From assembly GCA_003222395.1 (NCBI GenBank), contig QHWB01000040.1, positions 508,488-572,487 of the forward strand: a stretch of 64,000 nt of DNA. The letters run 5' to 3'. Positions 22,042-56,449 of the stretch are shown one piece after another. A program made the translations under genes and the position numbers. The notes under the pieces were generated by a model that worked only from the letters and a program-made list of their open reading frames with translations, was not told the DNA's origin and ran no database searches. Numbering within the stretch: position 1 is the stretch's first letter; each line of letters opens with the position of its first letter. This DNA is from Acidobacteriota bacterium (GTDB lineage Bacteria; Acidobacteriota; Vicinamibacteria; Vicinamibacterales; CAVVIG01).

Positions 22042-22044
22042 ACC

Positions 22045-22175
22045 GGGAATCGAATAATCGAATAATCGGGTAATCGGGTAATTGGGTAATTGGGTAATCG
22101 GGTAATCGGGTAATTGGCAATCCAACAATCAATTACTCAATTACCCGATTATCCAATTATCCAATTATCCAATTC
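22045..22175. repeat. AT-rich octamer array, inverted pair without a gene (empty-site form)
   Basis: Nine direct units of the form AATCGGGT/AATTGGGT (two are AATCGAAT) run from 22049 to 22120. About six units of the complementary orientation (CAATTACC, CGATTATC, CAATTATC) run from 22130 to 22175. The centre is a nine-base unmatched loop. The array fills the whole gap between the TraB gene and the S9 peptidase gene. Its low GC contrasts sharply with the flanks. The same octamers bracket the four-helix-bundle gene at 39034. Confidence 0.9.
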
Positions 22176-26774: not shown

Positions 26775-28007
26775 CTATCCCCGGGTCTTGTCTTCGCTCG
26801 GCGGGGGCGTGCGCGTCTCGGCGTCGGCGATTGGCGCGCCGGCGTCGCCCTTCGACGTGGCTCGGGGCGACCCTGAGCTCGTCGTCCCTCGACTTGGCTC
26901 GGGACGACCCTGAGGGTCTCGAAGGGTCGAAGGGTCGCGGTCGCGTGCGACGGCGTGCTCGCGGCCGGAGTTTTCGGCGTCGCTCGAGACAGGCGTGAAC
27001 TCGTTGGCGAACGTCCGCGCTTCCTTCGGCAGCGTCTTCGCACGATCCGGCGGTACGGTGATCCAGGTGCCGGTCATGAACCATTCGAGACCGCTATCGG
27101 GCTGGCGCGACTGGTGACGCGGCGCTCCCGTCTCGCGCGGAAATACGTCGAGCAGGTGCGCCTCGTACGTGCGGATGTCGGCGTCGCTCATCGCCTGGAA
27201 TTCGTCGGCGTCGAAGGGCGGATATCGCTCGGCGATCTCCTTGGAGAGATTGACGCGGAGCACGCGCGGCGCTTCATCGAACCGCACGGCGTCGATCGGC
27301 AGCAGGTATCCGCGCTGCCCGAACAATCCGCCGCCCTTGACGACGACGTACCGCGGCTTGTCGGTGCCGGCTTCGACGACCAAGCCGTCGAACGTGCCGA
27401 GGTTCTCATCGTCCTCGTTGCGAATCGGCAGGCGTTCGCGCCCCTGACCGGCGAAGCCCGTGGTCGCCGCGACGTAGCGCAGGCGGCCGGTCCAGGGCGG
27501 CGCGAGCATGTCGACCTCGGCGCGTGCGTCGTCGTTGATGTGCGCTTCAGCAATCTCTGACAGGCGGCGGTCGGCGCGCCCCTCGTCGTCGAGCGTTTCC
27601 TGAAGCAGCCGCGCCTCGTCGAGACGGTTGAGCCGGCGCGCGTAGGTGCGGGCGCAGCCATACGCCGCAATCTCGTAATGCTCGATCCGCTGCGCGACGC
27701 CGATGATCGCTGCATCGCGCGCGTCGTCTGTCGTCACTTCATTCAGGCGGTCGTCGGCTTCTTGAACAATGCCGGCCAGGCCCGCGCACGGCCGCGCCTT
27801 CCTCCGCTCGCCCCAGTGGGTGAAGATCAGGTCGAGGCGCTCGAGATGCAGCCGCGACTCGTCGCAGTGTTTGGTCAAGGCGTCGCGTAGCTCCGGCGCG
27901 CGCGTCTGTTCAACCAGCTGCGGCAGCGTGCGCAGCATCTGAGTTTCGGCATCGTACAGGTCGCCAAGCTCGTCGATGTAGAGATCGCGCAGCGATCCGA
28001 TGGCCAT
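26775..28007 (-). CDS. YciF-like ferritin-fold (DUF892) and PRC-barrel fusion protein
   Basis: A 410-residue protein of two recognised parts. Residues 1-165 are a DUF892/YciF four-helix ferritin-like domain (SLRDLYIDELGDLYDAETQMLRTLPQL, QRIEHYEIAAYG). Residues about 175-290 are a PRC-barrel (RNEDDENLGTFDGLVVEAGTDKPRYVVVKGGG). The last about 110 residues are low-complexity and hydrophilic, and a repeat of family C codes for about 30 of them. The same PRC-barrel type occurs at 30789-31520. YciF proteins are linked to stress responses. A role in stress is inference. The C-terminal tail could have been added by the repeat. Confidence 0.85.
   Translation of the reverse strand: MAIGSLRDLYIDELGDLYDAETQMLRTLPQLVEQTRAPELRDALTKHCDESRLHLERLDLIFTHWGERRKARPCAGLAGIVQEADDRLNEVTTDDARDAAIIGVAQRIEHYEIAAYGCARTYARRLNRLDEARLLQETLDDEGRADRRLSEIAEAHINDDARAEVDMLAPPWTGRLRYVAATTGFAGQGRERLPIRNEDDENLGTFDGLVVEAGTDKPRYVVVKGGGLFGQRGYLLPIDAVRFDEAPRVLRVNLSKEIAERYPPFDADEFQAMSDADIRTYEAHLLDVFPRETGAPRHQSRQPDSGLEWFMTGTWITVPPDRAKTLPKEARTFANEFTPVSSDAENSGREHAVARDRDPSTLRDPQGRPEPSRGTTSSGSPRATSKGDAGAPIADAETRTPPPSEDKTRG
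26845..26937. repeat. Repeat family C inside a coding region
   Basis: Two direct copies of a TCGACxTGGCTCGGGxCGACCCTGAG-type unit (26851-26878 and 26888-26912) are followed by GGGTCTCGAAGGGTCGAAGG, a partial inverted copy. The whole lies in the 3' part of the DUF892/PRC gene and is translated without a stop as a Ser/Arg/Pro-rich segment (DPSTLRDPQGRPEPSRG and onward). Confidence 0.8.
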
Positions 28008-38560: not shown

Positions 38561-38917
38561 TTACTTCACCCCTACGAGCTCGACGTCGAACACGAGCGTC
38601 GCATTCGGAGGAATGACGCCGCCGGCGCCGCGCGCGCCGTATCCGAGATCGGACGGGATGATCAAGGTCCGCGTGCCGCCGACCTTCATGCCGGCGACAC
38701 CCTGATCCCATCCGCGAATCACCTGGCCCGCGCCAAGCTTGAAGGAGAACGGCTCGCCGTGATCGCGCGAGCTGTCGAACTTCTTGCCGTGCTTGTCCAT
38801 GGCCTTGGGATCGTACAGCCAGCCGGTGTAGTGGACCGTCACCTCTTTCCCCGTGGCAGCGGCGACGCCCGTGCCGACTTTTGCATCGCTGACCTGCAAG
38901 CTCGTGATGTTATCCAT
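38561..38917 (-). CDS. FKBP-type peptidyl-prolyl isomerase
   Basis: A 118-residue single-domain FKBP: VTVHYTGWLYDPKAMDKHGKKFDSSRDHGEPFSFKLGAGQVIRGWDQGVAGMKVGGTRTLIIPSDLGYGARGAGGVIPPNATLVFDVELVGVK contains the active-site Tyr, Phe-Asp, Trp and Tyr positions of the family. The chosen start is ATG 38917. Upstream frame codons to 38965 are translated repeat and unlikely to be real. The octamer array begins directly upstream, and TACAAT about 9 bases before the ATG (minus strand) could act as a promoter box, giving an almost leaderless mRNA. Confidence 0.9.
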   Translation of the reverse strand: MDNITSLQVSDAKVGTGVAAATGKEVTVHYTGWLYDPKAMDKHGKKFDSSRDHGEPFSFKLGAGQVIRGWDQGVAGMKVGGTRTLIIPSDLGYGARGAGGVIPPNATLVFDVELVGVK

Positions 38918-38922
38918 AAACA

Positions 38923-38968
38923 GATAATTGTAATTGGGTAATTGGGTAATTGGGTAATTGTTCATTGG
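38923..38968. repeat. Octamer array, left arm
   Basis: Three perfect TAATTGGG units (38931-38954) with a partial fourth and degenerate flanks (GATAATTG, TTCATTGG). Base composition is far below the surrounding GC level. Confidence 0.9.
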
Positions 38969-39033
38969 CGGCGCGCGCGATCGATCACGAGCGCGGCCAA
39001 GTTGGCAGACATCGTGCGTTGGGCGGCGCGGGC

Positions 39034-39423
39034 ATGAGCGAAGAAGCCGAAGCCCTGAAAGCGCGCACGATGTCGTTTGCCCTCGATGTCTGCAGGCTGA
39101 TTCGCGAATTGCCGCGAGAAGAACCTGGACCTACGGCGAAACGGCAGTTGGCAAAGGCGGCAACCTCAGTTGCAATGAACTATCGCGCAAGCTGCCGAGC
39201 ACGATCCCACACCGAATTCACGGCCAAGATGGGGCTCGTGGCCGAAGAGGCAGATGAAAGCCAGGGTTGGCTGGAGTTTATCGACGCAGCGAGTCTGATC
39301 GTCAGCGCCGCCGAACTTGCCCGCCTTCTCCAGGAATCGACGGAACTGTGCGCGATCGTGTCGACTTCATTCGCAACAGCCCGACGTAAAGAACATGAGC
39401 GTAAACGCAAACGTAAGCCCTGA
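39034..39423 (+). CDS. Four-helix-bundle protein (S23 / 23S rRNA intervening-sequence family)
   Basis: A 129-residue helical protein. Helix 1 is LKARTMSFALDVCRLIRELP; then GPTAKRQLAKAATSVAMNYRASCRARSHTEFTAKMGLVAEEADESQGWLEFI, which matches the form SVxxNYRAACRARSxxEFxxKxGxVxEEADE of the family (TIGR02436, also related to the accessory protein Avd of diversity-generating retroelements). The tail is basic (RRKEHERKRKRKP). ATG 39034 gives the family length. The gene stands alone, with no reverse transcriptase nearby. The stem near 39431-39447 and the AGACGTCTTTT after it could end transcription. Its function is not known; RNA or DNA binding is suggested by family members. Confidence 0.85.
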   Translation: MSEEAEALKARTMSFALDVCRLIRELPREEPGPTAKRQLAKAATSVAMNYRASCRARSHTEFTAKMGLVAEEADESQGWLEFIDAASLIVSAAELARLLQESTELCAIVSTSFATARRKEHERKRKRKP

Positions 39424-39468
39424 CGGCGCTTGCACCCGCGTAACGGGTTGCACCCACAGACGTCTTTT

Positions 39469-39521
39469 CAATCATCCAATTATCCAATTACCCGATTACC
39501 CGATTACCCGATTACCCGATG
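39469..39521. repeat. Octamer array, right arm
   Basis: CCAATTAT, CCAATTAC and then three CCGATTAC units (from 39476), the inverted complement of the left arm type. The TAA stop of the quinone oxidoreductase gene (39512-39514 on the minus strand) is part of a unit. Confidence 0.9.
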
Positions 39522-40492
39522 GTCAGAACAATTTTGCCGATGTGGTCGCCAGATTCCATGAGGCGATGGGCAGAAGCCGCGTCCCGCAGCGGAAACGTCT
39601 TGAACACGACGGGCTTCACCGCGCCCGATTCGACGAGCGGCCACACGTGTTCGCGTACCGCGCGCGCGATCGCGCCTTTCTCGGCGACCGGACGCGCGCG
39701 GAGCGTCGATCCGGTCACGGTCAGGCGCCGGTGCATGATCGTCTGGATGTTCAGCTCCGCCTTCACGCCATGCAGCGTGGCGATTTCGACGAGCCGCCCT
39801 TCCACGGCAAGCACGTCGAGGTTGCGCGGAAAATATTCGGCGCCGACCATGTCGAGCACGACATCGACGCCGCGTCCACCCGTCAGCTTGTTGACCACGT
39901 CGACGAAATCGGCTTCGCGGTAGTTGATGCACCGCTCGGCGCCGAGGCGTTCGCACGCCGCGCACTTCTCGGCCGTGCGGGCCGTGGCGAAGACGCGCGC
40001 GCCGCGCGCCCGCGCGATCTGAATCGCCGTCGTCCCGATGCCGCTCGATCCGCCGTGGACGAGGATCGACTCTCCGGCCTGCAGACGCCCGCGCTCGAAG
40101 ACGTTCGTCCAGACGGTGAAGAAGGTTTCGGGAATGGCGGCGGCGGCGGCGACATCGAGTCCGCGCGGCACCGGCAGACACTGCGGCGCCGGCGCGGTGC
40201 AGTACTCGGCATACCCGCCGCCGGCGACGAGCGCGCACACCGGATCGCCCACGCGCCAGTCGCGGACGTCGGCGCCGAGCGCTTCGATTGTCCCAGCGAT
40301 TTCGAGCCCGGGGATGTCGGAGGCCCCGGGCGGCGGCGGATAGCGGCCGCGCCGCTGAAAGACGTCCGGCCTGTTCACGCCCGCCGCGCCGACCTTTATC
40401 AGTACCTCTCCCGATCCCGGCGACGGACGCGGCCGCTCCGCCGGGACGAGGACATCGGGCTCACCAGGCTCACGAATTTCGATCGCGATCAT
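39512..40492 (-). CDS. NAD(P)H quinone oxidoreductase (zeta-crystallin-like)
   Basis: A 326-residue medium-chain reductase without zinc ligands. GEVLIKVGAAGVNRPDVFQRRG at about 27-48 is the quinone oxidoreductase signature, and VHGGSSGIGTTAIQIARARGARVFATA carries the NADPH-binding motif. Pig3/QOR-like. The last codon and TAA stop (ATCGGGTAA) are bases of the octamer array, so the C-terminal Gly could be original or provided by the repeat. It lies ten bases after the kinase gene stop. Confidence 0.9.
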   Translation of the reverse strand: MIAIEIREPGEPDVLVPAERPRPSPGSGEVLIKVGAAGVNRPDVFQRRGRYPPPPGASDIPGLEIAGTIEALGADVRDWRVGDPVCALVAGGGYAEYCTAPAPQCLPVPRGLDVAAAAAIPETFFTVWTNVFERGRLQAGESILVHGGSSGIGTTAIQIARARGARVFATARTAEKCAACERLGAERCINYREADFVDVVNKLTGGRGVDVVLDMVGAEYFPRNLDVLAVEGRLVEIATLHGVKAELNIQTIMHRRLTVTGSTLRARPVAEKGAIARAVREHVWPLVESGAVKPVVFKTFPLRDAASAHRLMESGDHIGKIVLTIG

Positions 40493-56281: not shown

Positions 56282-56449
56282 AACCACAGAGACACAGAGA
56301 CGCAGAGAAAATCAAGTGCGGAATCGTGCTGAGCACGCAAAGTGAACGCCGATCGATTCGGCGGCCGGCCGGCGCAGCCGCCGGCATGCGTCGCGTAGCG
56401 ACGCCGCCGAATCGAGGCGCTCCGTGTCTCTGCGTCTCCGTGGTTCTTC
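56282..56449. repeat. Long composite inverted repeat (family G, MITE-like)
   Basis: The outer arms are AACCACAGAGACACAGAGAC (from 56282) and its complement ending TCTCCGTGGTT (to about 56445). An inner pair, CGATTCGGCGGC at 56354-56365 and GCCGCCGAATCG at 56403-56414, is exact. A third, GCCGGCGCAGCCGCCGGC, lies within. The structure could form a long hairpin between the AlgI-AlgJ fusion and the M20 gene. Confidence 0.85.

Follow-up and report, generated by a model that had tools for sequence, protein, structure and literature searches.

Most of the S23/IVP-family genes examined, which come from many phyla, are closed by two inverted arrays of a short tandem unit, and gene and arrays together probably form a widespread class of small inserting elements, each with one S23/IVP gene and a unit of 7-10 nt. 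Among the loci compared here we observed the association of gene and arrays, units that are private to each element, a usual polarity of the arms, co-variation of protein and repeat, gene-less relatives with the same units, and sites that are occupied in some records and empty in others. A first-pass annotation of one locus, in a window of 64,000 nt (the whole stretch of DNA that was analysed), had described a lone four-helix-bundle gene framed by inverted octamer arrays; this observation is confirmed, and it is general.

At the window locus (Table 1), TAATTGGG units at 38931-38954 lie inside the perfect 3.9-copy left array (38930-38960), and the right array begins with a decayed unit at 39469, outside the regular part called by TRF (39479-39520). 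The best inverted alignment pairs 38930-38960 with 39485-39515 over 31 nt at a score of 47; elsewhere in the 64 kb, 605 sliding windows scored at most 39. TRF, this alignment score and the PF05635 and TIGR02436 matches given below bear out the mutually inverted octamer arrays around a single S23/IVP gene. The element had also been said to supply the TAA stop codon of a neighbour, and the TAA that ends the oxidoreductase gene (...ATC GGG TAA, 39514-39512 on the minus strand) does lie within the right array. On the other side, the FKBP start codon (ATG 38917) is 12 nt from the left array, and the mechanical ORF of this gene begins at an earlier in-frame ATG (38965) and spans the array. An alternative open frame of the S23/IVP gene starts from TTG 38950. 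As RNA, the whole window element is predicted to fold as one structure that the two arms close as a stem (z -4.2 relative to 20 shuffles). Elsewhere in the window (26843-26937), 1.9 copies of a 37-nt direct repeat precede a short TCGAAGGG tandem.

Table 1. Coordinates of the element, its neighbours and a gene-less array pair in the window.
Feature	Position	Strand	Details
Gene-less inverted pair of GTAATTGG-type octamer	22044..22174		arrays 22044-22114, 22130-22174
Flanking FKBP-type isomerase gene	38561..38917	-	profile search, ORF list, sequence reading
Left octamer array, unit GTAATTGG, 3.9 copies, 31 nt	38930..38960	+	tandem-repeat and inverted-alignment analysis
Four-helix-bundle (S23/IVP) gene	39034..39423	+	ATG 39034, stop TGA 39421-39423
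Right array, unit GTAATTGG inverted (CCAATTAT, CCGATTAC)	39469..39520	-	regular part 39479-39520 by TRF
Flanking zinc-type quinone oxidoreductase gene	39512..40492	-	profile search, ORF list

The window gene matches PF05635 at 39.5 bits (cut-off 33.8) and TIGR02436 at 66.9 bits (cut-off 24). When searched against Pfam and NCBIfam, it hit 23S_rRNA_IVP/TIGR02436 as the only families, with no transposase and no nuclease family. Its protein matches PDB 2rld in phmmer (E 1e-8). Foldseek with an AF2 model of the protein (pLDDT 80.7) gave 2rld as the best PDB match at probability 1.00 and E 0.002, with none at E <= 0.001, and 2gsc_A at a TMq of 0.62; the modelled fold is a four-helix bundle like those of 2rld and 2gsc. 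The protein of X. campestris reportedly forms a ring of five, according to the title of a 2006 paper by Lin as it stands in reference lists. A ring of five subunits for this S23/IVP relative is also mentioned in passages of PMC4990558. Phylum signal was weak in a protein tree of 62 rows picked by similarity to one query (37 label changes; shuffled mean 44.2, minimum 38 in 300).

Framing was scored by local alignment of the 500 nt left of a gene with the reverse complement of the 500 nt right of it, at a threshold of at least 34, and control windows with a gene-sized body were slid along the loci themselves, away from the gene. The 7.74-Mb draft genome from which the window comes contains six PF05635 matches, one of them partial, and all six genes are framed by inverted short tandem arrays, no two of them with the same unit: TCAGCTG, a GGGCGGGAC-like 9-mer, AGAGGGC, ATTGCTG, GGGATT(T/C) and GTAATTGG, with inverted scores of 70, 54, 61, 75, 60 and 47. 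The idea of one octamer as the terminal repeat of the element was thus not upheld, as the unit is private to each element and six genes carry six units in this one genome. The statistical link between gene and arrays, which the first-pass annotation had set as its test, is borne out: the threshold is reached by 17 of 21 genes of the same order versus 22 of 1842 control windows, and by 50 of 71 genes from named genomes of many phyla (the loci with usable flanks among 80 named loci found by family alignment) versus 31 of 2899. In direct orientation it is reached by 7/71 genes and 57/2899 controls, which places the excess in the inverted orientation.

A larger set combined 74 of 86 and 59 of 89 search rows with the 80 named loci (213 rows, 193 distinct loci); the rows left out were fragments, contig ends and others. 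After removal of ten loci with short flanks, 183 usable loci remained, and on these de-duplicated counts 135 loci from many phyla score at least 34, comprising 59 of 72 in the order of the window genome and 76 of 111 elsewhere. The pooled controls reach the threshold in 53 of 4741 cases and were drawn from two subsets of this set, own order and named loci. The earlier view of gene and arrays as one element is supported by the framing and by the occupied and empty gaps described below; the 48 of the 183 loci that fall below the threshold speak against the simple picture. Framing was also found for 7 of 7 plasmid-borne genes examined, taken from the best rows of 26 records, and for 17 of 30 cyanobacterial loci (30 of 45 rows, two of them also in the larger set). 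Scanning of 2.9 million viral contigs yielded 34 loci; of 30 that were tested, including some near-identical ones, 23 score at least 34. Numbers this small do not point to phages as the vehicle of spread.

The best period among the 135 framed loci is 7 nt in 109, 8 nt in 19, 9 nt in five and 10 nt in two. The arm before the gene has more G than C on the coding strand in 118 of these loci, with the reverse in 15 and equality in two; the usual polarity is thus that the G-rich strand reads inward. Both arms are built of the same unit, yet no common order of unit variants was seen in 65 elements (mean mid-p 0.485, p 0.61); the arms are thus not simple copies of each other, which favours constraint on the unit over arm-to-arm copying. 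Copying of whole arms had been considered on account of an apparent shared variant order, which came from arms chosen by alignment and vanished when arrays were called independently in the 65 elements. As a separate observation, in a set that includes duplicate loci, a stop codon occurs on the C-rich strand in 43 of 118 7-mer units (22.4 +/- 4.0 in shuffled units) and on the G-strand in 39 (45.6 +/- 4.3).

Both properties of the repeat vary with the protein: the period follows the protein subtype, and the unit sequence follows protein similarity. A period of 8 occurs in 8 of 12 elements of the NYR subtype, to which the window protein belongs, versus 10 of 119 others (Fisher p 9e-6), the NYR motif that defines the subtype having been picked after the data were seen; further loci of this subtype include periods of both 7 and 8. 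All four proteins of the RADDL subtype have a period of 9-10. Mapped on a tree of 131 proteins, period labels change 17 times; in 500 shuffles the number averaged 24.0 and never fell below 19. Among the 106 elements of period 7, the distance between units drops from 3.45 at low protein similarity to 2.11 in the highest class, which comprises 44 pairs including some orthologous loci, and none of 500 permutations gave as strong a relation between unit distance and protein similarity. For instance, similar proteins of Chloroploca and Blastocatellia, in different phyla according to their locus labels, are framed by the near-identical units AGGTGTC and AGGTGTT. Mean unit distance among period-7 elements is as large within one genome (3.47, 109 pairs) as between genomes (3.38, 2894 pairs), and the units are therefore not one host repeat. 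From the co-variation we infer that the protein may recognise its own repeats.

Arrays related to these units also occur away from any gene of the family. With up to two mismatches, two units of the octamer have 202 matches in the window's own genome, compared with none for the reversed-pattern control. Of 153 arrays lying over 900 nt away from the S23 gene at their locus, 129 were testable, and 59 of these match units of S23 elements of the same genome versus 9.35 expected from random unit sets of equal size, with unit sets taken per genome. The share is 17 of 22 in the window's own genome (2.0 expected) and 8 of 33 in G015 (3.5 expected). Gene-less inverted pairs have a median of about 120 nt between their arms (44 pairs). 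By inter-arm distance, the S23 gene is enclosed by 0 of 31 pairs under 300 nt, 38 of 43 at 300-700 nt and 4 of 12 at 700-1500 nt; the share of 38/43 is inflated and was not used as evidence, because most of the sequence was fetched for holding the gene.

Matches to GTAATTGG number 202 in G000, 144 each in G010 and G011, 54 in G005, 35 in G012 and 21 in G004. Despite the 144 matches in G011, no close homologue of the window gene was found in its draft (the best is 39% identical, with another unit), which speaks against a strict one-to-one rule of gene and GTAATTGG repeat. Two homologues with related octamers are present in G005, both with frames broken by stops. The reversed control of the TCAGCTG pattern gives 828 matches in G012 and 438 in G011, which indicates another abundant heptamer family there.

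The same gap is filled in some cyanobacterial plasmids and empty in others, with flanks that are 90-95% identical. Between a TraM-like gene and the next gene, two plasmids of Nostoc strain C057 have 52 nt (empty), C052 has 496 nt with gene and arrays, N. edaphicum has 489 nt (7 nt less), and ATCC 53789 has 260 nt with a gene-less array element; the C057 plasmids match C052 at 94.7 and 93.2% around this gap. A second gap, between an integrase gene and the next gene, measures 3 nt in Tolypothrix, Aulosira and Nostoc carneum, and in Calothrix it holds a whole element between the integrase stop codon and the corresponding ATG, the matches being about 90% identical. In the Calothrix record the start of the next gene is annotated earlier, within the right array. 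With three empty records and one filled, insertion would be the simpler reading at the integrase gap, insertion and loss being not separable at every site. No target duplication is evident at these two gaps, whose junctions are partly ambiguous.

Further elements sit between ribonucleotide reductase genes and in the cas6/cas4 gap of Anabaena sp. 90. The cas6/cas4 gap of Dolichospermum (L515:819-1065) contains an unrelated long hairpin, GTAGGTTGGGTT...AACCCAACCTAC, instead of the S23 element. Three of six paralogue pairs within one genome share the ORF alone and differ in their arrays. No clean transposition between paralogues emerged: L058/L301 have common flanks but are unframed (scores 20 and 23), L350/L351 are unframed (17 and 19), L445/L460 also have the upstream gene in common and represent a segmental duplication, and L307/L073 have the ORF and part of the right side in common. 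Neither a cleavage enzyme nor a transposition event was seen at the loci examined.

In Xanthomonas, an S23 match was found in 32 of 35 species searched. Of the 30 loci compared, 26 are at a gap that we take to be accB/accC and four at a presumed carA/carB gap; these names, like groES and groEL below, were assigned by reading the translated sequence. Gene-less versions fill the accB/accC gap in 4 of the 13 genomes read there (G060, G064, G065 and G069). At groES/groEL, a gene-less copy has an outer array and an inner motif GCAAAGCGGC in common with the gene-bearing copy. Across the wider family (30 genomes, judged by eye), this stretch, counted from 24 nt upstream of the groES end, is 66-103 nt without arrays in eight, has GGGAATC-like inverted arrays in at least nine, and has other sequence in the rest. 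One gap is common to Xanthomonas and Luteimonas, indicating that some sites are old. No fresh event was found between Xanthomonas G061 and G063 (86% identical), whose three compared array sites are shared, one differing by 14 nt. Two side observations concern the same gaps. Xanthomonas without an S23 element at carA/carB (L225-L245) have other sequence of several kinds, possibly with small ORFs, so that this gap looks like a hot spot; and at groES/groEL of L390, L394 and L396, REP-like GTAGGGCGGG or GTAGGGTGGG hairpins occupy the place that GGGAATC-like arrays have in other genomes.

To account for these elements we propose that the S23/IVP protein, a ring of five in the solved relative, would recognise the tandem unit of its own element when the nucleic acid is single-stranded or folded into a hairpin. 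Each protomer might take up one unit, and the geometry of the protein would then set the period. Through this recognition the protein could hold or protect the ends of the element and act in trans on gene-less copies, and cutting and joining would be left to host functions or to an enzyme encoded elsewhere. The protein might also take part in movement or array expansion, as the first-pass annotation suggested. Operon gaps may tolerate insertion because the two arrays close a hairpin, as in the rRNA intervening sequences that carry the family. The full form of this proposal is tentative, its chances falling somewhat short of even: a class of single-gene elements, so far unrecognised and crossing phyla, whose non-enzymatic ring protein reads the array one unit per protomer, its geometry fixing a period of 7, 8 or 9 nt; in which each element has its own address; in which the dispersed heptamers of cyanobacteria, xanthomonads and others are gene-less copies; and beside which a second, PD-(D/E)XK (GxxExxY) class may exist.

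If the protein were instead a repeat-binding regulator that is not mobile, the arrays would be RNA or DNA binding sites serving autoregulation near its own start, gene-less arrays would make up a regulon, and dispersal would proceed by gene transfer and slippage. This is rather unlikely: arrays adjoin start or stop codons of neighbouring genes at several of the sites read, the window RNA closes by its arm stem, and MacGregor 2015 suggested that TAACTGA repeats act post-transcriptionally and are bound by an unknown protein, but regulation by itself leaves the two-sided inverted framing and the empty and occupied gaps unexplained. A retro-element, in which the protein would partner with a reverse transcriptase supplied in trans, as its relative Avd does, and the hairpin RNA would be copied into gaps, seems improbable; it is consistent with the PF05635-Avd homology reported in sections of PMC10053308, with sites lacking an evident target duplication and with the folding of the whole element as one RNA. 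It is very improbable that the gene is a passenger landing in hairpin-rich gaps, with inverted heptamer hairpins being intergenic repeats of the hosts made by slippage and conversion, since the period tracks protein subtype, the unit tracks protein similarity and gene-sized control windows are rarely framed, even though several gene-less GTAATTGG pairs are among the matches listed, two Xanthomonadaceae gaps also hold other hairpins or other sequence, and the GxxExxY family already shows the same framing in part.

GxxExxY genes (PF13366, of the PD-(D/E)XK nuclease superfamily) may form another class of genes framed by arrays. The window contains an inverted pair of CACAGAGA/CGCAGAGA units without a gene (56283-56311 and 56421-56446), and arrays of this kind frame a GxxExxY gene at L117:11131-11568. 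Among plasmid GxxExxY genes, 4 of 8 have an inverted score of at least 36, one of them between fabD and fabG.

The inserting element that we favour would suggest a role, open to testing, for a family so far known as an uncharacterised component of rRNA intervening sequences. It would also supply a candidate partner protein for the short tandem repeats that separate studies have described in several groups of bacteria. Should each protein recognise its own unit, nature would offer many protein/word pairs with periods of 7-10 nt, and a recognition code might be derived from them. An element type that fits neatly between operon genes without a recognised recombination enzyme of its own also raises the question of the inserting activity.

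In the open-access literature, to which our search was confined (subscription papers and preprints being outside its scope), the parts of the element are described separately, and among the papers listed none was seen to link gene and array. Heptamer repeats are described in Xanthomonas (GGGAATC) and Nostoc (GGGGA(C/T)T) by PMC4692102, with 70 and 75 convergent heptamer pairs in two Xanthomonas genomes. PMC4679880 describes them in Beggiatoaceae, cyanobacteria and Bacteroidetes. Searching both papers for the words S23, four helix and intervening gave no match. Among our elements, the S23 gene of Xanthomonas lies between GGGAATC arrays and one of Nostoc between arrays of a GGGGAGT-type unit. 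PMC4679880 also suggests that an unknown TAACTGA-binding protein might be the mobile element. The S23 protein is a candidate of this kind, a TAACTGA-framed S23 gene not being among the elements shown here. Excerpts of PMC3936711 list 18 S23/IVP-type genes in cas loci and one between cmr3 and cmr2, and the term 'tandem repeat' is absent from its main text. To Avd, the accessory protein of DGRs, which parts of PMC10053308 describe as homologous to PF05635, the likeness is one of protein homology.

Intervening sequences of rRNA have the S23/IVP gene inside a stem-closed element, and the arm-stem-closed RNA of the window element follows the same plan. The gene family is reported in rRNA insertions (PMC11270868, in part), and tandem heptamers GACAGAT are noted upstream of the S23 gene in the Coxiella intervening sequence (PMC4990558, in part). 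These sequences are located inside an rRNA gene, whereas the window element lies between FKBP and oxidoreductase genes; the S23 elements read here differ more generally in being placed between protein genes, with arrays on both sides and with dispersed gene-less derivatives. The RAYT/REP (REP/BIME) elements, judging from passages of PMC2817692, similarly comprise one gene flanked by inverted repeats, with more inverted doublets between genes. They encode a Y1/HUH transposase, whereas searches of Pfam and NCBIfam gave no transposase family for the window gene, and their repeat is one palindrome, in contrast to the tandem arrays of a private 7-10-nt unit in S23 elements. With these differences, RAYT/REP elements are the nearest working analogue of the S23 elements.
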